Part shown: positions 38,271-50,681 of the stretch, piece by piece | How positions within the stretch are numbered: position 1 is the first letter of the stretch | How the letters are laid out: the number at the start of each line of letters is the position of its first letter | Assembly: GCA_937889545.1 (NCBI GenBank) | Contig: CALAOT010000072.1 | Span: forward strand, 1-64,000 | Length of the DNA: 64,000 nucleotides | Source: an uncultured Opitutaceae bacterium | GTDB lineage: Bacteria > Verrucomicrobiota > Verrucomicrobiia > Opitutales > Opitutaceae | Reading direction: 5' to 3' | The notes under the pieces: generated by a model | Database searches by the model: none | What the model was told of the DNA's origin: nothing | Seen by the model: only the letters and a program-made list of their open reading frames with translations | Program-made: the position numbers and the translations under genes

Positions 38271-41200
38271 TCAGAAACTGAATACGTTCTTGACCGTGAA
38301 CCCCTGCGTCGGACCGATACGATAGAACGCAGGTTGTGCCACACCGTTTATCGGTGCCTGATAGCTTACCGGAATCAGATAATTCCCTCTGCCGACGTTT
38401 TCGACGTTGAGCTGAATGTTCCATCCGATCTTCTTGGTGAGCTTACGGTGATAACCAACCCAAAGGTCGTAGTAGGTCTGACTCGGCGCATATTCTGGAG
38501 CGGATAGGTTGGGGAGGTACGGAGGCGGAAGCGTGGGATCTCCACTCGGGGGATAGCCGATGACCTCACGGTCTGTATAACGTATGCTACCACCAATGTT
38601 AACCCCTTTGAGGAAGCTGTGATCGAAGTCATAGTTCGTCGTCAGATTGAAGCGCCACTTGGCGAGTTGCTCAACCGCAACACCTCGCTGCTGCTGGAGT
38701 TCGGCATAAGCGCCACCTACTGCAGGGAGGCCGTTGTATGCGATGTAGTAGGCTTGGGCGACGTCAGGAACGCTTGGAGCGATGTCCTGCCCCCAGAACC
38801 ACTGCTGAGAGCCGCCGGGGCCCTTAACATAGGCCGCCGTCTCCGTCATGAATTTGGTCAAGGCCGCGTCACCGATTTGCGTGACGACCGCATTCGTTTC
38901 CGTAGCGTTAAGCGTAATGCGCCAATTCTTCGTGGGGTTGGCGTCGAGCTCAACTTCCCAGCCCTGGGACACTGAGTTTTCGGTAATCGCGAAGTTTTGT
39001 TCGCCTGGGGTGCCCTGCAACTGACTTCTCGGGACAAGGCCGGCCTGCACTTGAGACAAGCTACCCATACCCCAATTCTTAAAGAAGTTGGGGAAATCGG
39101 TGTTAAGCTGGGTCTCCCATGCCCGCGTGGCTGCGGTCGAGGCATTCTGTAGATTTTCCATCGCCTGAGTGTGGTAGTTATTGGCATCGAAGTACCAGCC
39201 CGAGCCCTCGCCTCCAACAGCTAGACCAGCCACGCCCCCATCGGGGCCGATGCCCGGATTAGTGGACTGAACAGACGTGGGTCCTGCTTGGAGCGGGGTG
39301 GACTGGTCAGTGTGATAATAAAAGACGTTGCCGTAGTACGCCGAGTTGCCAACGAAATTGGCCAATTCGGCGGCGAAGGATGTACCGTCGGGGTTCGAAC
39401 CGTTCGTGATTCCGGTCACGTAGCGATTGACCTTGAGGGCGAACATGCCGTTACGCGTCTCGAGCATGATGCCACGCTCGATGGTCTTGCCTGCCGGAGG
39501 CGCGACGGGATCCCCGTTAATGTTGACGCGGCTTGAGTCCGGCTCGAAGTTGCTCGATACGCTGTAGGACAGACTGACATCGACGGGAAGCTTGCTGGCA
39601 AACTGTTTCAGGCCAGGGAGTTCCCCAAGATGAGCTACAATGCTATAGGAGCGGGATTGAACTTCTACACGACCCTGTGTGCCGTTTGCGAAATTGACGT
39701 TATTGAAGTTGAGGCTTTGCGGGTCGTTCGCATCGCCAAGAGTGGCGGAATCAGCATAGCTCGTGTTGATATCCTTGCGCCAGCCATAGATACCCACAAG
39801 CGCGTCATCCAGCCATTTGCCTTCGTAGACCAACGCCTGAGAGGTGGTCACCGAGCGCGTAATACTATCGGAAGTCGCCAAAAGGTCGCGGTTGACGGAA
39901 GGGTCGGCTTCAGAATTGGTGACGGTCAGGGTCTGCTGGCCCGCCCAGCCGTTGTAGTACGCAGGGTTGGTTGGGCTCAATGCTGAGTTCGCCGGGTTCG
40001 GAGTGAAATTGAAGTAATTGATCGGTTGGCTACCGATCGTCGGGTTGCCGGTGACCCTGGGAATATTAGCCCCTGAGAGCGGCTTGCCGACCAACGAAGA
40101 CCCCAGATAAATGACCTGTTGCGGGTTTACACTTTGGAAGTTACTACCGCTGTATCCGCCGTCGAGAGTATCGGCGAGAGCGGTGTTTGAGCCGAGATAT
40201 CCATACTGCTGCCAAGCCATGGTGCTGGTTGTTTGCTTCTCCTTATCCGCCAAGCCGGTCAGGGTTTGGATGCCAAGGATCTCTTCCCACCACTCATTGC
40301 CGTCCTTCCTGAAGTCATGTGTGACAAAGCCCGTGACGCGCGAATCTTCGCGATCGCTGATATATTGGTCATTTGTAGAGTTGTCGTTGTTAATGACGTA
40401 CGGGCGGCCATAATTCGGATTCGCGCTAGCGGTTGCAAGCGACGTTCCGTCGTTGTTAGTCGACATGACGTCAATGTACAAGGGGACGGCACCGCCGAAG
40501 GGGTTGATCTGGCCGTTCTCGTAGTGCTGTTTGTTGTAAGCAACGTCGAAGCCAACCTGGTCATTGAGGAAGGTTTGCGAGAGATCCGCCGTCGCTGACC
40601 AGAAACGTTGCCATTCCGATTTCATGGTGCCGTCGATCAAATTCTTGTAGAAATTGAAGGCCGAAGGATCGGTCAGCGAGGTATCCGTGAAGAGGCCAGC
40701 GTTGGCGTAAGGCAGCCCCGCATAGATGGGTTCCCCCGATGCGCCGTTAATATGAAGCCATGCGCCGGGAAACGCGCCATAGGGCTCAACGAGGCCGGTG
40801 GTTGTGGCCAAACCAGGCTGAGGCAGGGAGGTGAAGCGGTACGTGCCCGCAGAACCTACGGTGGAACCGTTCTGGAAAACATTTAACGGAAAACTGGAAT
40901 TACCGACCTGGCCATTTGTAAACCACGGATCGTCATTCGAATTGCCGGCACGGCCGGCACCTGCATAACCATTAGCAGCGCTGGCGATGTAACCAGCGGG
41001 GAGGCCGGATACCCACGAATTCAAACCATTCAGTCCCGCCTGATAAGCTCCCGTATCGGCGGGGTTAAAAAACGGAGTAATGTGGTCCGTCGGGGGAAGC
41101 GCGCGAGGATTGTCGGAATCGACCTGGCCAGACTCGAAGTTCGCCTTGAAGATGGTATGATTTCCGCCTTTGTTCAGGAAAGCAGGTTCGACGCGGAGTG

Positions 41201-42011
41201 CACCGGATATGCGCTGGTCCTTCGAATAGGCCGGCTGCTGCTCATATTTTTCGTCGTCGTGCAGGACGTCGAGCCGGAAGGCGACCTGGCCAGGCACGAT
41301 CTGGAAATTGTAATCCAAGCTCTCGCGGGTGGTGCCCCAGCTGCCAAAGCGAAGGTCGAGGTTCCCAGAATTATTGAATTCGGCGCTCTTGCTGCCGGCA
41401 TTGATGATACCAGCGGGACTGCCTTCACCAAAGAGAATCGCATTCGGTCCGCGTGAGATATCGATGCGGTCGATGTTATATGAGTCCCATGGGATGTCTG
41501 AGAGAAAGAAATCGTGGGTATTATCGGCAGCAGCGAGACCGCGGATACGGGTGTCCTCGCTCGGATGGATGGTGTCTTCGGTACGGACCGCACTGCTGGT
41601 ACCGGGACCGGGACTGGCATAGTTGCCAAATACGCCACCCACTTCGGTGCCGCCGAGTCTTTGGAGCAGCGAGGTGTTGTCGGTCGCGTTGGTGTCCGCG
41701 AGGAATTGCGAGGTGACCACGGACACGGAACTGCCGATGTCGCGCAGATCGGTGCTGAGTCGGTTGCCGGCCAGCGTGGTCTCCGCGGTATAGCTTTCTT
41801 TGCCGGCGGTGGCGCTGACTTCGAACGGGGACAGCAGGAGAACTTCGTCTCCCGGGGCATCCGTTGTCGTAGTCGTAGTCGTCGTCGTCGTGCTGGCGGG
41901 CTGGGCGGGCTGGGCGGGACTCGGGGCTGTCTGGGCCTGGATACTCGCGCAGGCAGATATCGCGGCGACCAATACGGCTATGAGCCGTGAATGCCTTGGT
42001 GTGTATTTCAT
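38271..42011 (-). CDS. TonB-dependent outer-membrane receptor, Verrucomicrobiota type
   Basis: 1246 residues. A signal peptide (RLIAVLVAAISACASIQAQ) is followed by a Thr-rich linker of ten Thr encoded by a variable trinucleotide tract (about 41864-41892), then the segment LLLSPFEVSATAG typical of this phylum's receptors. A plug domain (LSTDLRDIGSSVSVVTSQFL, then NIDRIDISRGPNAILFGEG) and a very long beta-barrel follow, ending FTVKNVFSF. It should import a large ligand, probably an oligosaccharide released by the GH87 enzyme, with TonB energy. ATG 42011 begins the signal peptide; the frame is open 57 codons upstream without signal character. The receptor gene precedes the disaccharide operon and is separated from it by a hairpin. 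Confidence 0.92.
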   Translation of the reverse strand: MKYTPRHSRLIAVLVAAISACASIQAQTAPSPAQPAQPASTTTTTTTTTTDAPGDEVLLLSPFEVSATAGKESYTAETTLAGNRLSTDLRDIGSSVSVVTSQFLADTNATDNTSLLQRLGGTEVGGVFGNYASPGPGTSSAVRTEDTIHPSEDTRIRGLAAADNTHDFFLSDIPWDSYNIDRIDISRGPNAILFGEGSPAGIINAGSKSAEFNNSGNLDLRFGSWGTTRESLDYNFQIVPGQVAFRLDVLHDDEKYEQQPAYSKDQRISGALRVEPAFLNKGGNHTIFKANFESGQVDSDNPRALPPTDHITPFFNPADTGAYQAGLNGLNSWVSGLPAGYIASAANGYAGAGRAGNSNDDPWFTNGQVGNSSFPLNVFQNGSTVGSAGTYRFTSLPQPGLATTTGLVEPYGAFPGAWLHINGASGEPIYAGLPYANAGLFTDTSLTDPSAFNFYKNLIDGTMKSEWQRFWSATADLSQTFLNDQVGFDVAYNKQHYENGQINPFGGAVPLYIDVMSTNNDGTSLATASANPNYGRPYVINNDNSTNDQYISDREDSRVTGFVTHDFRKDGNEWWEEILGIQTLTGLADKEKQTTSTMAWQQYGYLGSNTALADTLDGGYSGSNFQSVNPQQVIYLGSSLVGKPLSGANIPRVTGNPTIGSQPINYFNFTPNPANSALSPTNPAYYNGWAGQQTLTVTNSEADPSVNRDLLATSDSITRSVTTSQALVYEGKWLDDALVGIYGWRKDINTSYADSATLGDANDPQSLNFNNVNFANGTQGRVEVQSRSYSIVAHLGELPGLKQFASKLPVDVSLSYSVSSNFEPDSSRVNINGDPVAPPAGKTIERGIMLETRNGMFALKVNRYVTGITNGSNPDGTSFAAELANFVGNSAYYGNVFYYHTDQSTPLQAGPTSVQSTNPGIGPDGGVAGLAVGGEGSGWYFDANNYHTQAMENLQNASTAATRAWETQLNTDFPNFFKNWGMGSLSQVQAGLVPRSQLQGTPGEQNFAITENSVSQGWEVELDANPTKNWRITLNATETNAVVTQIGDAALTKFMTETAAYVKGPGGSQQWFWGQDIAPSVPDVAQAYYIAYNGLPAVGGAYAELQQQRGVAVEQLAKWRFNLTTNYDFDHSFLKGVNIGGSIRYTDREVIGYPPSGDPTLPPPYLPNLSAPEYAPSQTYYDLWVGYHRKLTKKIGWNIQLNVENVGRGNYLIPVSYQAPINGVAQPAFYRIGPTQGFTVKNVFSF

Positions 42012-42180
42012 GGTTTGGAGTGTAGTTAGAAGGGCTGCGCTTCGCCTGAACCGGAATCTCCGATCAGGCGATGGGGTGAATGGGGTCGTTTGCGGGGTAG
42101 AGCAATCGCTAGCTGACGGGAAAGATCTGCCACAAGCCGGGCGCAATTCGATTCCACTCGTGTGCAAACGTTGCGGAGTC

Positions 42181-42348
42181 ACGGTTGCGAAAGAATCAAC
42201 GACGACGACCCGGGAGGCAAAGGACGCTGCGTTTTCGTCCCCGATGGCCAGCGGACGCGGACTTACGGTTGCGAGAGAATCAACGACGACGATCCGGGAG
42301 GAAAAGGATGCTGCGTTGTCATCCCCGATGGCCAGCGGACGCGGACTT
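42181..42348 (-). repeat. Two tandem 84 bp units at the 3' end of the ASPIC gene
   Basis: Units 42181-42264 and 42265-42348 each begin ACGGTTGCGA and end GCGGACGCGGACTT, differing at about ten positions. The period is exactly 28 codons. The gene's TAA (42263-42265) sits at the unit junction, and the equivalent position at the end of the second unit is TGA. Both units encode the same tail PGSSSLILSQP, so the terminal part of the gene has been duplicated downstream of its own stop. Confidence 0.9.
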
Positions 42349-45300
42349 GGCGCGGCGGATTTGCGTCCGAATAGCCAAAAAAACAGGCCGAAGTGGATTG
42401 GCTGTAGTAGCCGGAACCGGCGTACACCTCGCTGCTCCTGGTCGAGCCATCCGCCATTTCGACGGTGATCCTTGCACCCACCCCGGCAGGATTGCCGGCC
42501 GGCCCACGCAGCATGATGCTCACGGACTTGCGGCCGGCGACGCCTTTGTTCCGAAAGGCGAGCACATCGTCGTTGTTTCTCGAGACGAGAAAGTCGGGCC
42601 AGCCGTCGTGATCGAGATCGAGGACGACCAGCGCTTTCGCGTCACGCGGCACCACCAGACCGCTCTCGGCGGGAGGCACCGCGGTGAAGTGGCCCTGGCC
42701 ATCGCCGCGCAGCATCTGGCTGAGCCCGCCGTCGAAACGGCCGACGGCGGGAATGGGTGCGAACGAGTTTTGCACCGCGTAGATGCCGGCGTTGCCGTCG
42801 CCAAAAAAATCTCCGGCGACGATCCCCTGCAGCGGGGCGATCTGGGCGATCCGCGGCAGCGGTTCAAAGCGGTAGGTTCCATCGCTCTGGCTGAGAAACA
42901 CGCCGCTGCGCAGCTCCGTGGCCGCGAAGCGATCGGCTTTCGCAATCTTATCCTCGCCGAAAATATCCCCCACCGTGGCCCGCGCATAATTGTTGTTGAG
43001 GGGGAAATGTTTCAAAATGAACGGGAACACGGCGCCAAGGTCGCGGCGCGCGCGCCAGGGATAGACGCGGTCGCCCTCGTAATAGGCCTCGACAAGCCTC
43101 GGAGAACCGTCGCCGTTGAAGTCGCCCGAGTAAATCAGGGCCGGATGCCGCGCATCCGCGTGGTACTGCGTGTTCAGGCCCAAATTGCCCACCACGTAGT
43201 CAGGCCGGCCGTCGCCGTTGAAATCCGCCGCCGCGATCGACGTCCACCAGCCGGTGCCCGCCGCGGCAAAGCCCGCCTTTTCTGTCCAGTCCTCGAAGCC
43301 TATGCCGCGATTGTTATGGAAATATTTCACGTGGCCCCACTCCAGGGTCAGCAGCAGGTCCGGCCACCCGTCTCCGTCCACATCGCTCCAGAGAGCCGAT
43401 GTGATCATGCCGACTTCACGCAGCTCGGGAGCCAAAGTGTCGGTGACATCTTCAAACTTGCCGCCGTGGTTCTTCAGCAGGGCGCTTTGCGGCGCGTACG
43501 GGTACTGCCCGGAGCTGATGCGGCCGCCGATAAACACATCCAACCATCCGTCCCGATTGAAGTCCGCGGCGGCGACTGCCCCCGCATTGATCGACAATGG
43601 CGGCAAGGCGTCCTCGCCGGCAGGTCGCAAGCCGCCTTGGCCATCGCCAAGGTAGAGACGGGGCTGGTACTCCGACATCCCGGCGGGGAGTGAATTGCCC
43701 CCCATGGTGACGAGAACATCGTCGTTGCCGTCGCCATTAGCATCGAAAACCAAGACCGGCCCATTATCGACCGGATTGGCGGAAACTCCCGCAAGGGGAG
43801 CGACCTCGAAGTTTGCGCCGCCGGTGCGGCGGGCGATTGTCGGCAGATCCTGCTTGGTGCCTCCGATCACAATCGATTCCCGTTCTCCTCCGGCCAGTTT
43901 TCCCACCGCCAAGGCCGGACCGCGGCGATTGAAGCGAAACGGCACCAAACGCTGCAGCGAGGCTTCATCGACGGTCTCCTCCCGCATGCGCACGGCAAGG
44001 CCCAGGTCATGGCTCACCTCTTGAAACGACGTGCGGGGCGGTGAAACCTCCGCCGGCCGGGAAACGGATGCGGGCGCGGCGGGTCCAGCGGGTTCGGCAA
44101 TCAGATAACGCTGATCCAGCACCACATTTTCCCAAGCCTGCACGCGGCCACTGGGCCAGGTTACAACCAGACGCTCGATCACTGTATCCTCTCCCAGACC
44201 GAATTGGAGCATGGGCTCGCTGCACGAAAGGTAGCCCCGTGCCAGGCCCAGCGTGGACACCTGCACCCCCAGCGCGCTTTCGATTCGAACGGTGGCCCCA
44301 ATGCCAAAGCGATTCGACGCCGTCCCGCGGAGATCAAAAATCACTCGATGCCCCGTTTGGCAATCATTCCTCAGGACGGTGGCGCCGCCGTGGTAGTTGC
44401 TATAGACGATATCGAGGTCTCCATCCCCATCCAGGTCGCCGTAGGCGGCGCCAAAACTCACCGCCCGTTGATCGAGGCCCCAGTCCGCGCTGACGTCTTC
44501 AAACTGGAGGTTCCCGAGATTACGCATGGCAATGTGTTTTTCCGCTCGGATCGGACTCTCCGTCATGACTCGAATGGACTCGGACATGCCTTCGGCGCTC
44601 ATCTGACGTTTCACGACGTCAACGTTAGGATCGTACGGGAATCCATTTGTGACGTGCAGGTCGAGGCGACCATCATTGTCCAAATCCACCAGACGGATCG
44701 ACCAAGTCCAATCGGTGGCGGCGACTCCCGCCAGAAACGCCGCTTCCTGAAAATAACCCGTTCCCGTATTGATCAGCAGGGCATTTCGAGGAATCTTCGC
44801 CACTGTTGTGGCGCCATCCGGCCTTTCGTCGAGGCGCGCTCTGGAATCGGCCATCATACGCTGGTCCTTCTCATGGGTGGCGGAGGCCATGTCGGCGACG
44901 ATGAAATCGATCAGCCCGTCGTTGTTCACGTCACCGTAATCCGAGCCCATGGAGGAGAAAGCCGTGTGCGGCAACACGGTTCCGGAAACGTCGGTAAACG
45001 TTCCATCCCGGTTGTTATGGTAAAGGGAGTCCGGCACGCCGTAGTCGTAGCCGGCGTAAAGATCCGGCCAACCGTCGTTATCATAGTCCCACCAGGTTGC
45101 AGAATGACTGCGGGTGCGCAGAACGATGCCCGCCTTGTCGGTGACGTTCAGAAACGTCCCATCGCCCTGATTATGGAACAAATACCCTCGCCGCCCGCCA
45201 CTGTCGCTTTCGTTGGCCAGCATGTTCGTGGCGATGTATACATCGAGCAGCCCGTCGCGATCGTAATCGCTGAACGCCGCCATCACCGAGGAATCGACCA

Positions 45301-45892
45301 CGTCCAGGCCGTAGGCATGGGCCATCTCCTTGAAGGTGCCGTCGCCCTGGTTGATATAGAGCAGGTTCGGAGCATTATAGCGACAGACGTAGATATCCAG
45401 GAGGCCGTCGTTATTCACATCGGCAAAGGTGGCGCCAAACTTCCAAATCTTCGCCGCGTCACCCTTGTCCCCGACGCCGGCCTTGTCCGTCACGTCCTCG
45501 AACTTGAAGTTGCCGAGATTGCGGAAAAGGCGGCATGATTCCGTTTTGCTGACCACGAAAATATCCGGCCTTCCGTCGTTGTCGAAATCCCCGATCGCCA
45601 CGCCCGTCCCGATGGAGCCGCCGTTGTATTGTTGGAACAGGGCGCCCTTCATCTGTGGATCGGCGTACTGGTTTTCCGTCCGCACGCCAGTGGCTTCGGG
45701 CGGAAGCAGGGTGAACATGGTCTTTCCGGGCGGCCCGGAACGCGGATTCAACTTGTGCCCCACCAAAGGCGCGGTCTCAAACGGGACCGGCTTGGTCTGG
45801 GGAGTTTCCTGGGCCGCGACCCGAAGCCAGCCGCGCAGGCCGAAGCCCACGGCGGCGGCAGACGACCGCACGATCATTTCCCGACGATTCAT
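42263..45892 (-). CDS. Exported FG-GAP/VCBS repeat protein with ASPIC/UnbV domains (CRTAC-like)
   Basis: 1209 residues. The N-terminus MNRREMIVRSSAAAVGFGLR has a twin-arginine motif followed by a hydrophobic stretch, so Tat export is likely. There are many calcium-binding FG-GAP repeats of the form IGDFDNDGRPDIFVVSKT, ADVNNDGLLDIYV and DVDGDGWPDLLLTLEW, forming propellers. Two ASPIC/UnbV segments are seen (about 510-580, near GHRVIFDLRGTASNRFGIG, and at the C-terminus, VRVRWPSG). Such proteins are abundant in Verrucomicrobia and Planctomycetes; the function is thought to be glycan binding or cell-surface attachment but is not established. It follows the membrane protein by 51 bases. The extreme C-terminus lies in an 84 bp tandem duplication. 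Confidence 0.9.
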   Translation of the reverse strand: MNRREMIVRSSAAAVGFGLRGWLRVAAQETPQTKPVPFETAPLVGHKLNPRSGPPGKTMFTLLPPEATGVRTENQYADPQMKGALFQQYNGGSIGTGVAIGDFDNDGRPDIFVVSKTESCRLFRNLGNFKFEDVTDKAGVGDKGDAAKIWKFGATFADVNNDGLLDIYVCRYNAPNLLYINQGDGTFKEMAHAYGLDVVDSSVMAAFSDYDRDGLLDVYIATNMLANESDSGGRRGYLFHNQGDGTFLNVTDKAGIVLRTRSHSATWWDYDNDGWPDLYAGYDYGVPDSLYHNNRDGTFTDVSGTVLPHTAFSSMGSDYGDVNNDGLIDFIVADMASATHEKDQRMMADSRARLDERPDGATTVAKIPRNALLINTGTGYFQEAAFLAGVAATDWTWSIRLVDLDNDGRLDLHVTNGFPYDPNVDVVKRQMSAEGMSESIRVMTESPIRAEKHIAMRNLGNLQFEDVSADWGLDQRAVSFGAAYGDLDGDGDLDIVYSNYHGGATVLRNDCQTGHRVIFDLRGTASNRFGIGATVRIESALGVQVSTLGLARGYLSCSEPMLQFGLGEDTVIERLVVTWPSGRVQAWENVVLDQRYLIAEPAGPAAPASVSRPAEVSPPRTSFQEVSHDLGLAVRMREETVDEASLQRLVPFRFNRRGPALAVGKLAGGERESIVIGGTKQDLPTIARRTGGANFEVAPLAGVSANPVDNGPVLVFDANGDGNDDVLVTMGGNSLPAGMSEYQPRLYLGDGQGGLRPAGEDALPPLSINAGAVAAADFNRDGWLDVFIGGRISSGQYPYAPQSALLKNHGGKFEDVTDTLAPELREVGMITSALWSDVDGDGWPDLLLTLEWGHVKYFHNNRGIGFEDWTEKAGFAAAGTGWWTSIAAADFNGDGRPDYVVGNLGLNTQYHADARHPALIYSGDFNGDGSPRLVEAYYEGDRVYPWRARRDLGAVFPFILKHFPLNNNYARATVGDIFGEDKIAKADRFAATELRSGVFLSQSDGTYRFEPLPRIAQIAPLQGIVAGDFFGDGNAGIYAVQNSFAPIPAVGRFDGGLSQMLRGDGQGHFTAVPPAESGLVVPRDAKALVVLDLDHDGWPDFLVSRNNDDVLAFRNKGVAGRKSVSIMLRGPAGNPAGVGARITVEMADGSTRSSEVYAGSGYYSQSTSACFFGYSDANPPRQVRVRWPSGMTTQHPFPPGSSSLILSQP

Positions 45893-45943
45893 GGTGCTGT
45901 TTTCAGTAGAGTCGAGGAGTGGCGCGGCGGCGGCGGTCCGCCC

Positions 45944-48391
45944 CTACTGCAATCGAACGCGCAAGGTCGGGGGCACAAGGCTGAGCGCGAGGGCGTGTTC
46001 CGCCGGCGGCATGGTCACTCCCAATCCGCGACACAAAACCAGCAGCCGGTAAACGGACCCCGGTGACAGTGAACGGATGCGGTGATCATCGATGGCATTG
46101 ATACACAGCGTCAATTGGTTCTTGGCGAGCACCGTGACTTTGGCTCGGGCCAAAACCACCGCGAGATCGACGCGGCGGTTCCATGAAATCAAGGGCTGAA
46201 CTCTCAGCGCCAGGCGTGACTGCAGCACCTTCAGGATCTTGGCCAATTCGGCATCATCGTGGATGGCGTCTGCCACCTGGGCACGGGCGACCCAGGCGCC
46301 GAAATCGGTGGAGAATCGGGTCAGCCCCTCGGCCGCCGACCGGGCTCGACCCAAATCCCCTATTTCGGCAAAATACAGCGCGATATTGCCCAGGGTGGTC
46401 GCGTCATCCTGTTCATCGACAACCTCTAAAACCGTTACGGACTGGTCCTCGAAACCCGGGATGGAAGGCAAGGGGTAGGCCAGGGGACGCAGCCAGCGTG
46501 GAAGAGTCGTGAATTTCAGTTTATCGATGAAGGTTCCTTCGATTTGAGCGTCGGCAGCGCGGGCAAAGTCATCGAAGAACGTGTCCCAAGACAGCAGGAC
46601 GATGTGCGTGATGTTGCGGCGATTCACTATTTCCTTCGCCTCTTGGACGTTCCGGGCGCTCATGATGCGAATGGCGGCCCTTATGCCGTCTTTGTTTTCA
46701 TCGCTCACCGAGCCGAGGCCACGAAACGCTCCATAATAACAAAGGGCAGTGGATGCGCTGGGGGGCGAAAGCACGATCACGGTCCCCGGATCGGAATGCT
46801 GGCCGATCCAACCCGCAAGATCGCGCAGAATCAGGTCCTGAAGCTCTGTTCGGCTAAGGACATCGCCCTGGCTTGGCCGGTCCCAACCCGAAACGTAAAT
46901 TAACCCGGGGGCGAGCAAAACGACGACGACGCTGATCCAACCGAGGCGTGCCTTGGGGCCAATCGCCTGGGAGGAAATCCCCGGCGCCACCGCGGCCAGG
47001 GTAACCAGCAGCAATGCATCGAGGGTTTGCCACCAGGTGAGCTTAACGCAGGCGAGGGATAGCGCCACCATCACCGGTCCCAGCGTGATCGCAACTGCCG
47101 CCCGGGTCGGCTTCGCGATCTGGCGATTCTTCAGCACCCAGATGGCCGGAAGCAGCGCGCCCAACGGCGCCAGCGTCAGCCACAGCCAGATCGAAGGTCC
47201 CTGGATTCCTATCCATGCCGCCAGGTTTGGCGCCACGATCCCGCCGCGGAGCCGAGTCAGATGCGAGCCCAGGCTGTCGAGAACGAAAAGATCGACGCCG
47301 TGACGGATCAGGAGCGCGGCGGGCACGGCGATCACGACCGCGATGGACAACGAAACCAGGACGAGATTCTTGGGGGACCGGGAGAAGGTCCGGTTTTGCA
47401 GCCAAGCGCTTGCCTGGACCAGCAGCTCTCCCGCGCCGAGCCACGCCAGACCCTGGAGCGGGTGGACAAACGACAGTTCCCACGTCCAGAGTTCGGAAGG
47501 CGAGTATTCGATCAGTGAGGCCAGAATCGTGGTCGCGGCTCCCGCGCAGGCCCAAGCGCGCCAAGGAAGCAGAGGTGTCGGCCCGTTTGCGGGCGTATTG
47601 CCGCGCGGAGCGAGGAGGGGGACGAGGAGACCGCCGCCGGCAATTCCCCACAGGACCGGAAGCTGCACGGAAACTTTGACCCACAATCCCAATCCGCCCG
47701 CGATGGCGGCAAGAATGAACCAACGTCGCCTGGCTTCCTCGTTTTCGGGCGCTGCCGCGGCAGCGCAGGAAAGAAGCAGCACGCTCGCCATCGCGAGAGC
47801 CTGAGCGAGACCTCGGTCATCCGGCGCGCCCGGCCAAAACCCCGTGATGAAGGGAAAAAGAGAGACCAGGCCGACGGATACGAGAGAGGCGGAAAGCGAA
47901 CCAAAACACTTCGCGGCGAGAATCGCCGATCCCAATATGATAATTCCCCATAAAAGCGGATCGGCCAAGAGAGCTGCCTTTTCGACCAGCGTCGAGGGGG
48001 GCGCTCCAGTGGCTAAATGCTCACACCAGGCGAGGAAACCCAGCCACCATCGATAAGGTGAGGGCGTAAGCACGGTCCGGCCGAAAGGCGCATTTTCATA
48101 ATCGATGTGGCGCACTCTGGCTTCGCCGCGATTCAGCATGCGCTGGGTTTGCGCGAGCCAGTGGTAACTCGCGTCGAGTTGATCGGGTATGGGCAGCGAA
48201 TTGTTGGGCGTCAGCTCTGCATCGCCTGGAGCGGAACCGGTAACGCCCCCGGTGTGATTCTCAGCGGGGGCTCCGATGGTTGAGAGGTAATCGAGGCGAT
48301 TGATTCGGGCGGCGGTGTTCCAAATGAGAATGGCGCCGGCCCCCAGCAGGAATGCAATCCAGACCGAGGAGAAATGCCGTCGCGATTTCAT
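45944..48391 (-). CDS. Large polytopic membrane protein with a C-terminal soluble domain
   Basis: 815 residues. An N-terminal helix (VWIAFLLGAGAILIW) and a periplasmic stretch are followed by about ten more hydrophobic helices up to about residue 530. A soluble C-terminal half (about 535-815) has helical repeats (GNIALYFAEIGDLGRARSAA) reminiscent of TPR. The overall plan resembles GT-C-fold glycosyltransferases or O-antigen-modifying proteins (HIDYENAPFGRTVLTPSPYR after helix 1), but no diagnostic catalytic motif is visible. It is 51 bases upstream of the ASPIC protein, so the two may be made together. A decayed partial copy of the same protein lies head-to-head at 48586-49565. Confidence 0.75.
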   Translation of the reverse strand: MKSRRHFSSVWIAFLLGAGAILIWNTAARINRLDYLSTIGAPAENHTGGVTGSAPGDAELTPNNSLPIPDQLDASYHWLAQTQRMLNRGEARVRHIDYENAPFGRTVLTPSPYRWWLGFLAWCEHLATGAPPSTLVEKAALLADPLLWGIIILGSAILAAKCFGSLSASLVSVGLVSLFPFITGFWPGAPDDRGLAQALAMASVLLLSCAAAAAPENEEARRRWFILAAIAGGLGLWVKVSVQLPVLWGIAGGGLLVPLLAPRGNTPANGPTPLLPWRAWACAGAATTILASLIEYSPSELWTWELSFVHPLQGLAWLGAGELLVQASAWLQNRTFSRSPKNLVLVSLSIAVVIAVPAALLIRHGVDLFVLDSLGSHLTRLRGGIVAPNLAAWIGIQGPSIWLWLTLAPLGALLPAIWVLKNRQIAKPTRAAVAITLGPVMVALSLACVKLTWWQTLDALLLVTLAAVAPGISSQAIGPKARLGWISVVVVLLAPGLIYVSGWDRPSQGDVLSRTELQDLILRDLAGWIGQHSDPGTVIVLSPPSASTALCYYGAFRGLGSVSDENKDGIRAAIRIMSARNVQEAKEIVNRRNITHIVLLSWDTFFDDFARAADAQIEGTFIDKLKFTTLPRWLRPLAYPLPSIPGFEDQSVTVLEVVDEQDDATTLGNIALYFAEIGDLGRARSAAEGLTRFSTDFGAWVARAQVADAIHDDAELAKILKVLQSRLALRVQPLISWNRRVDLAVVLARAKVTVLAKNQLTLCINAIDDHRIRSLSPGSVYRLLVLCRGLGVTMPPAEHALALSLVPPTLRVRLQ

Positions 48392-48415
48392 TGGGATTAC
48401 GGGCTGCCCAAAACA

Positions 48416-48585
48416 GGCGCATTCAAGGTCGTCGGCAAGCTCTTCCTAGCATCCGGGCTATGCGGACGTGCCTCAGGTCAGCAAGCCACGGCGGATCTGG
48501 TGAAGCGTATTCAAGACAGCTCCGCGTGGGACAGCACTCTGATCATCATCACCTATGACGAAAACGGCGGGCGCTGGGAGCAGAG
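48416..48585 (+). pseudogene. Fragment of a phosphoesterase (acid phosphatase / phospholipase C type)
   Basis: In one frame ATADLVKRIQDSSAWDSTLI then IITYDENGGRW matches the conserved C-terminal part of bacterial AcpA/PLC-type phosphoesterases. Upstream, HPGYADVP and FKVVGKL belong to the same family but lie in other frames, so at least two frameshifts are present. The homology stops abruptly at about 48585, where the next fragment begins. Confidence 0.65.
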
Positions 48586-49565
48586 GCGTGGAGAGCCTGG
48601 GGTTACGGAGGGGCCGCGGCAGTCTTGGGCTTCTATCTGATCGAGTCTTTTCCTAATGGAATGGCCGACTGGGAGCTCCGAACCATACATCCACTCTACG
48701 GTGTGGCGTGGCTGGGCTTGGGTTTGGCCCTTTCGCTGGTAGCAGAAGCGACCCAACGCGGAATCCGAGCCTGGACGCTTCGCAGCTGGGGCTTGGCACT
48801 CCCGCTTGGGAAAACTTCGCAGGAATCCAGGCCGCCCATCCGCATCGTCAGCGCTTCTAACCTGGAGGAAGCCAAGGGATTGATCGATCGTCGCGGCGTC
48901 AGGTTTATAGTGATCCCTTCCTGGGATTCCTATCTGGACGAGTATGCCCAAAATGGAATGGGGCAATTGGAGGGTACATCTATTGCCCGGCTGCACGCGT
49001 GGAACATAACCCGTTGGCTGCGACCAATGGCCTTTCACCTGCCGGCCGGAGCCGACTTGGGCGGCCAGTCCGTCACAATCTTCGAGGTTGTCGATGACCA
49101 GGACGAAGCACTGGCGCTTAGCCGCTTGGCCCAATATTTCGTGGAAATGAACCGGATGGATCTGGCGGTAGGCGCCGCCCGCGGATTGCGGCGTTATCCG
49201 ACGGATCTTGATTCTTGGATAGCCCGTGCCGAGGTTGCTACTGCGACTGGCAATGAAGAGGCAGCAGGCGGCGCATTGAAGCTGATCATACCAGAATGAA
49301 GAGCGGCGCCTATCCTCGCCTGCCGCTGGACCGACGGGTGGGTCTCGCGGTTCTGTTGGCGCGAAATAGGCAGACGGACCTTGCACGTGATCAGACACGC
49401 GCCTGCATCGATCAATTGAACGAGAACGAATTACGGTCGCTCTCAACCGGCTCCCTCTATCGCCTACTGGTCCTGATCAGGGGTTTCGGCTTAAGGATCG
49501 AGCAGCCACCAATGCTCGATCTCGCCAGGAATCTTCTCCCTCAGGATTTGCGCGGTCGTTTCTGA
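48586..49565 (+). pseudogene. Decayed, internally deleted paralogue of the 815-residue membrane protein
   Basis: From 48586 the frame reads AWRAWGYGGAAAVLGFYLIE, parallel to WRAWACAGAATTILASLIEY of the neighbour. WELRTIHPLYGVAWLG pairs with WELSFVHPLQGLAWLG. The next segment jumps to RIVSASNLEEAKGLIDRR, parallel to RIMSARNVQEAKEIVNRR, so about 230-250 residues, including several membrane helices and part of the soluble domain, are missing. The frame stops at 49299, and homology resumes in another frame to 49565 (RVGLAVLLARNRQTDLA parallel to RVDLAVVLARAKVTVLA). The deletion plus frameshift mark it as non-functional. Confidence 0.85.
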
Positions 49566-49595: not shown

Positions 49596-50681
49596 CTAAA
49601 CCTCGCAGCCGGTCTTGACTCCCATCGGCGGCCGCACAGTCCCGCCGTCGTGCCAGTGTCCGTGAACTTGAAGTGTACGGGGAAGTTGGGGAATCCCGCG
49701 TTCCCCGGCCTGCAATTTCGAAAACAACATGTCTACCGCGGCGCGGCCAATCTCCTCAGAATGCTGCTTAACCCCGGACCAATCCGAATGGACCCGGGTC
49801 ACGTCGAGCGAGACAAGGCCGATATCCTTCGGAATATGCCTGCCGCTGCCCGCCAGCCAGGCATCCATGACGTTGGGTTCGTTGCGGAATGTTGAAAGAG
49901 TCAGAACGCAGTCGACCTTGTGCTTGTCGACCCAGCTCAAAAATATGTCGACGTTCATCTGCGTTGGCAGCAGCGGCGGGATCTGGGCCAACGAAGGCAT
50001 TGTCACTGAAAGTCCTGCGTAACCGAAGGACCATCGACCATCGGTTATATTGTCCTGATACTTTTCAATCGCGAGGCCGATGCGGCGGTAGCCGCATTGC
50101 GTGATCGTCCTAGCGGCCATTGTCACGGCCTCCGAATGGTCGCTCAAGACGCAATCGAGACGTGGCGATGCGATTTGGTGGCCCACTTGAACAATTGCAA
50201 AATCGTTCCATGGAAACGAGATCGCGTGCGGCTCCGTCGGAAATGCCGCCAAGAGAGCGCCGGTAATCCCGCGGGCCGCGAGAATCCCGCCGAGCCGCTG
50301 TCCCGTCATCCCACTCGAACAAAGTGTGAACTCTGTGATTCCGTATCCGAATGATTCGGCGCGTTCGCGCGCCGCCTCCCAATTGCTTTGGAGAGTGGGA
50401 GTTGCCCGCCATTCATGAGAGTCTGCGACCGGTGTCACGAATGCGATGGTCCCAAGATGATTCTGTGCCTCGCCGCGGCGGGTGGCTCGCATAACCTGAC
50501 CCACCAGCGCATTGTGCTTGTAACCGACGGCCGTCGCAGCAGCGAAGACTCGCAGCTGCGTGGAATTCGCCATCTTCGCAGCGCCGCTCAGGCAGCGCGA
50601 TGCAGTGGAAATGGAAACTCCAGCCTTTCTTGCAACGGCTTGGAGTGTGGACGCCGTGCGGGGTGGCACAACGGTGTTCAT
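49596..50681 (-). CDS. LacI-family transcriptional regulator
   Basis: 361 residues. The N-terminal LacI helix-turn-helix TLQAVARKAGVSISTASRCL then a hinge region (about 50-65) precede a periplasmic-binding-protein-like sugar-sensing domain (GTIAFVTPVADSHEW, VLSDHSEAVTMAARTITQCG, YRRIGLAIEKYQ, IGLVSLDVTRVHSDWSGVKQ). Such proteins repress carbohydrate genes until their sugar binds. It stands at the upstream end of the minus-strand carbohydrate region, 1.1 kb before GH92 on the other strand, so either could be its target. The strong basic-hydrophobic break at position 36 (Ala-Lys-Met) matches normal LacI linkers. Confidence 0.93.
   Translation of the reverse strand: MNTVVPPRTASTLQAVARKAGVSISTASRCLSGAAKMANSTQLRVFAAATAVGYKHNALVGQVMRATRRGEAQNHLGTIAFVTPVADSHEWRATPTLQSNWEAARERAESFGYGITEFTLCSSGMTGQRLGGILAARGITGALLAAFPTEPHAISFPWNDFAIVQVGHQIASPRLDCVLSDHSEAVTMAARTITQCGYRRIGLAIEKYQDNITDGRWSFGYAGLSVTMPSLAQIPPLLPTQMNVDIFLSWVDKHKVDCVLTLSTFRNEPNVMDAWLAGSGRHIPKDIGLVSLDVTRVHSDWSGVKQHSEEIGRAAVDMLFSKLQAGERGIPQLPRTLQVHGHWHDGGTVRPPMGVKTGCEV

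Follow-up and report, generated by a model that had tools for sequence, protein, structure and literature searches.

In bacteria, disrupted genes are lost through deletional processes (Kuo and Ochman 2010; PMC2916853). The locus described here resembles such decay in its lineage-specific nonsense codons, frameshift and deletions, but differs from it in that decay set out from a chimera, joined from two truncated genes, and in that the 3' half keeps codon constraint. The mechanism is ordinary pseudogene decay, in which deletions (one of them at a repeat of 5 bp) act together with nonsense and frameshift mutations. The left part of the chimera is related to PF04185 acid phosphatases: a 62-codon piece is about 42% identical to WP_166478867.1 of Rhizobium leguminosarum, but compared with that protein only an internal piece is left, and its middle part is out of frame. 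The right part belongs to a membrane protein family whose profile and fold matches, the latter from a low-confidence model, are led by AglB, DPY19 and OST or translocon chains, which hints at a relation to the GT-C enzymes STT3/AglB/PglB and DPY19. Unlike STT3/AglB/PglB, the family has no PF02516 match in the own genome, reads WEN..DG at the place of the WWDYG motif and continues into a TPR-like helical part.

The window, i.e., the whole stretch of 64,000 nucleotides that was analyzed, covers positions 1-64000 of contig C72 of its own genome (G000), that of a soil bacterium, and coordinates refer to the window (Table 1). The pseudogene lies between two genes that are both intact. The preliminary description, made from the letters of the sequence, had presented a chimeric pseudogene in which a phosphoesterase tail is joined to a deleted copy of the neighboring membrane protein gene. 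The chimeric pseudogene is borne out, as a phosphatase scrap is followed by a lesioned paralogue and the same junction is found in a related genome, G002. The fragment at the left end is indeed a phosphoesterase, with a PF04185 match at 48470-48580 (E=1.4e-7, Pfam search) within an 88-aa ORF at 48374-48640, which scores 31.4 bits against a cut-off of 23 and covers only profile positions 259-295 of 356. It is not a tail, but an internal piece. In tblastn searches the remnant aligned to the 514-aa Rhizobium acid phosphatase without gaps (E=1e-12), and the corresponding piece in G002 matched the same protein with E=6e-11. The sequence HPGYAD lies in a different frame from the rest of the piece, and two compensating frame changes flank it. 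A profile search of the own genome gave no further PF04185 matches, and in a comparison of contigs only those carrying this locus in G000 (C72) and G002 (C25) had both a PF04185 match and the membrane family. Among 322 genomes of the order, a search for the source of the piece returned only this locus itself (G002 was evidently outside that draw), and the best match on Rhizobium plasmids reached 50% over 39 residues; neither search revealed a source.

Table 1. Features of the pseudogene locus and its surroundings in the window.
Feature	Position	Strand	Remarks
TonB-dependent receptor	38271..42182	-	Same module as the FG-GAP/UnbV and 815-aa genes
1209-aa FG-GAP (9 stretches)/UnbV_ASPIC (2 stretches) protein	42263..45892	-	Usual neighbor of the 815-aa family
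Intact 815-aa family member	45944..48391	-	Faces the pseudogene head-to-head; hints of a GT-C, STT3/AglB-like nature
Acid phosphatase (PF04185) remnant	48395..48580	+	About residues 371-432 of 514; also in G002
Paralogue 5' part	48586..48787	+	Covers residues 276 to about 342 in the numbering of the 815-aa family; the first 275 residues are lacking
GGGGC	48788..48792		Joint of the 622-bp internal deletion; in G002 the word stands at each end of the stretch lost here
Paralogue 3' part	48790..49299	+	Residues 554-723, up to the frameshift near 49283; within ORF 48559-49299
Paralogue last part	49296..49565	+	Residues 725-813 and stop, in a different frame; ATG overlaps the preceding stop (ATGA)
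LacI-family regulator	49596..50681	-	Marks the locus in 4 of the 13 genomes of the genus, counting the own one, at an E limit of 1e-60

As the preliminary description had said, homology to the paralogue begins with AWRAWGYGG right after the phosphatase piece, and the pseudogene stands head-to-head with the intact gene. No ORF is fused across the junction and no fusion protein can arise there, because the two pieces are in different frames. The remnant aligns to family residues 276-325, 554-723 and 725-813, and its main piece matches the family with E=4.9e-37; since the junction also recurs in G002, a chance match is excluded. Homology to the family extends over all kept parts, including the conserved C-terminus, and the inactivating lesions comprise two missing parts (residues 1-275 and residues about 326-553), breaks in the reading frame and, in G002, nonsense codons. 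The internal deletion that had been proposed was recovered: about 228 residues are missing by alignment to the neighbor, and 622 bp relative to the G002 allele. The chance of at least 5 bp of microhomology at random breakpoints, as seen with GGGGC, is 0.006. A frameshift had been placed near 49295; the frameshift is there, but it lies at about 49283, and the second ORF starts at 49296. The ATGA overlap between the stop of one 3' ORF and the start of the other, at 49296-49299, is a product of this frameshift in the G000 allele. Additionally, the alleles of G000 and G002 differ in length by one base near 48835. The genomes are draft assemblies, two of them named as MAGs, and single-base lesions could be errors. 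Neither promoter-like matches (0 found against 0.7 expected in a weak scan) nor terminators were detected in the region. As a warning, the DNA upstream of the 815-aa gene is gene debris.

The LacI-family marker was found in G000, G002, G010 and G008. The junction in G002 is identical to that in G000, and the two alleles share 97% nucleotide identity. The G002 allele keeps the 622 bp that are missing in G000, carries one TAA and one TGA, and is open for 260 codons in its 3' half. In G010, position 48449 is joined to about 49545 over AG, nearly the whole region is gone, and the LacI and 815-aa genes lie 109 bp apart on one strand; this joint shares only 2 bp, and at least 2 bp would be shared by chance with a probability of 0.17. 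On the left of the joint, about 50 bp are retained at 90% identity, comprising the first 16 or so phosphatase codons. On the right, DLRGRF-stop represents the last six codons of the paralogue, matching the conserved family C-terminus LLPxDLRxRL. The order in G008 is TonB receptor, FG-GAP gene, one family copy (plus strand, 49% identical to the 815-aa protein), a second FG-GAP gene and LacI (95%), and no match to the phosphatase piece better than E=0.017 was found there. The close similarity to G002 and G010 ends at about 50690, and gene content differs beyond this point, with GH92 in the window genome, 6-phosphogluconate dehydrogenase in G002 and a GntR-aminotransferase in G010. Because G002 has the same junction and G010 keeps both ends, the chimera predates the three species.

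Our data did not give the neutral codon pattern expected since inactivation. Between G000 and G002 there are 13 differences in the 396 sites to the left of the deletion, against 52 in the 765 sites to its right (p=0.015), and the differences in the 3' half are distributed over codon positions as 4/12/34 (p=5e-7; blocks 2 and 3, 717 bp). The dN/dS estimates, which use blocks 2 and 3 only as block 1 overran the deletion joint by 26 bases, gave dS of 0.20 and 0.16 and omega of 0.19 and 0.24. For comparison, dS between the two genomes is 0.037 for the 815-aa gene, 0.074 for LacI and 0.085 for the FG-GAP gene, and the pseudogene has more synonymous differences than LacI (p=0.003) and than the 815-aa gene (p=1e-8; site numbers rounded). 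These patterns suggest that the 3' half was still constrained as coding sequence while G000 and G002 diverged, at least for part of that time, or that the segment was exchanged. Thus, an older divergence under constraint may have been recombined next to a younger left half, or there may have been a late coding function, and the data fit either. One of these is needed as an extra assumption, because a gene that was dead before the species split should lack such constraint. The constraint therefore weakens the notion that the gene had already died when the species split, but not the lesions present today.

Collectively, these observations are very probably explained by an old, diverged member of the putative GT-C (STT3/AglB-like) family that was truncated and fused in the ancestor of three species and then erased independently in each. 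We observe the shared junction, the lesions and the scars directly; the order of events is one that we infer. The first 275 codons would have been lost in the common ancestor of the three Opitutaceae species, and the remaining paralogue fused to the internal acid phosphatase piece, close to where a second member of the family starts. The truncated product could not have been a whole transferase and presumably lost its function. Erasure would then have proceeded in G000 by the 622-bp deletion at the 5-bp repeat and by frame changes, in G002 by two nonsense codons and in G010 by deletion of nearly the whole region, while the 3' half either remained under coding constraint for a long time or was restored when it recombined with an intact allele.

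The preliminary description had instead pointed to duplication, then deletion and fusion; as a rival reading, this would mean that the neighboring 815-aa gene was recently copied, in tandem or in inverted orientation, before the other two events. Deletion and fusion stand, while the duplication of the neighbor does not. The head-to-head position speaks for such an origin, and so does the best tree, in which the neighbor and the G008 copy (G008_C50) group with support 100 and the pseudogene joins this pair with support 55. However, the pseudogene (G002 pieces, residues 276-815) is only 38.7% identical to the neighbor over 511 residues, and of the 35 other members compared, 25 exceed the neighbor in identity to the G002 allele, the best being C58_21k with 47.5% (G008_C50, 45.7%). 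When the G000 allele is compared over its C-terminal part, the neighbor reaches 44.3%, with 19 of 35 members higher and the best at 50.4%. The pseudogene branches outside the pair of the neighbor and the G008 copy, and constraining it as sister of the neighbor was rejected by the AU test (p=0.0004) and is borderline by the SH test (p=0.052); constraining it to G008_C50 gave the same values (AU 0.0004, SH 0.052), while placement with the C58_21k clade was not rejected (AU 0.093), all with a program warning of few replicates. The suggested alignment of family members thus showed that the neighbor is not the closest, and the search for an intact paralogue in relatives gave no close intact orthologue among the 36 members compared. 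These identities and trees used 36 of 64 distinct ORF hits (34 in alignment A1); the remaining hits were truncated versions of these genes, ORFs that were antisense or incomplete, and members from G011, G017, G018, G023, G025 (second), G033, G036, G039 and G052. By sequence comparison the pseudogene is an old outparalogue, and we consider a recent copy of the neighbor very improbable.

The third-position excess and an omega of about 0.2 in the 3' half would fit a truncated gene that was a functional, non-catalytic C-terminal half-protein, either recently dead or still translated as coupled ORFs, as would the open 3' half of G002 and the ATGA overlap in G000. The two nonsense codons in G002, the 622-bp deletion and frameshift in G000, the near-complete loss in G010 and the lack of a promoter-like match in the weak scan of the region argue against a half-protein, which we regard as improbable. 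A further alternative is that G010 represents the ancestral empty site and that the lineage of G000 and G002 gained the chimera by insertion. The short spacer between LacI and the 815-aa gene in G010 agrees with an insertion, but since the start of the phosphatase piece and the family's conserved last codons are both kept there, G010 carries a deletion and an empty site is hardly credible. The possibility that the junction is an assembly artefact, as raised earlier, or a binning artefact derives some weight from the 128 contigs of the own genome. It is refuted, as the same junction is found in a second assembly differing by 3% and the third has a deletion scar with both ends.

The 815-aa protein has no Pfam match above the cut-off and no NCBIfam match, and no description of its family was found in the titles or abstract openings of the papers listed. 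Weak Pfam hits among 34 members were led by Rv1476 and TPR_14 (3 members each); PF02516 gave no match in G000 (E 0.001), and it is not one of the 10 families that the scan of these members listed at E 0.1. In a profile search of solved structures, AglB C-terminal domains came top (3vu0, E=0.021; 3vgp, E=0.29). The fold model had a pLDDT of 44.0 from the single sequence and a mean of 45.8 with 8 sequences; the membrane part is mostly below 50 and the model is usable from about residue 570 on, so its fold matches are hints. The top seven Foldseek chains for this low-confidence model were two DPY19, four from OST/translocon complexes and, seventh, AglB, with E of 0.006-0.067 (none below 0.001) and TM of 0.13-0.17 by query length; 3vu0 ranked 20. 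Judging by their length, the OST/translocon chains matched are probably STT3. VIA-align superposed 3vgp on residues 519-659 with a Z of 6.1, at rank 45 and under many helical-repeat rows, where Z below 8 may mean a common arrangement only. Its best rows (Z up to 9.9) were mostly helical repeats on residues 660-815, and none of the 50 rows shown was a membrane GT-C chain. The place of WWDYG, which we take to be the STT3 oligosaccharyltransferase motif, does not hold this motif in the family consensus (W 18, E 23, N 28, D 18 and G 34 of 34) and reads SDENKDG in the 815-aa protein of the window. The RVRHVDYENAPxGR region presumably resembles the STT3 loop EL1. An hhalign comparison with two verrucomicrobial PF02516 hits gave no match. 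From these matches the family is a good candidate for STT3/AglB-like GT-C transferases, and we think this assignment likely.

The family occurs in 25 of 57 genomes (own included), with 0 to 10 match rows per genome across 13 same-genus genomes (pieces counted apart), so that the repeated amplification and loss suggested in the preliminary description is plausible. The single-contig relative G015 (5,957,605 bases; loci L026, L048 and L104-L106) has seven family matches. An FG-GAP/UnbV neighbor adjoins 26 of 30 non-pseudogene copies, as counted by eye in 27 chosen loci rather than over all family matches, and 22 of the 26 pairs are divergent. Two of the four copies without this neighbor lie at contig ends (L018, L060) and two lack it (L066, L105). 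The tandem cases are the 815-aa gene of the window, L059, L073 and one of two in L104. In the window, the 815-aa gene and its FG-GAP partner thus follow each other on one strand, an exception to the usual divergent arrangement, and the pseudogene is oriented as the partner should be. FG-GAP/UnbV copies of nearly full length number seven in the own genome, and one of them contains a TGA; four of the seven directly adjoin a family copy, and a shorter one adjoins C58_21k. More FG-GAP/UnbV matches, some with internal stops, lie at G000:C86:15768-21888 and G000:C6:48025-49467 and are possibly decaying members of the module. The stretch 38271-48391 of the window is an instance of this recurrent module of membrane protein and FG-GAP/UnbV protein, often with a TonB receptor.

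A more speculative view, which we hold to be possible but rather unlikely, is that the chimera is the scar of cassette exchange in an undescribed Opitutaceae surface-glycan or glycoprotein system. Each STT3/AglB-like transferase would have an FG-GAP/UnbV protein of its own, mostly encoded divergently from it and perhaps serving as its substrate, and in many cases a TonB receptor as well; pairs would be swapped, inverted and discarded at the LacI-marked locus, and before dying the truncated copy would have recombined with an intact allele and so been renewed.

The locus gives a clean three-stage example across close species, i.e., fused, internally deleted and nearly erased. The phenomenon is ordinary, and the membrane family is the part worth pursuing: a multi-copy, nearly unannotated, GT-C-like family tied to FG-GAP/UnbV proteins offers a concrete hypothesis of an enzyme and its partner.
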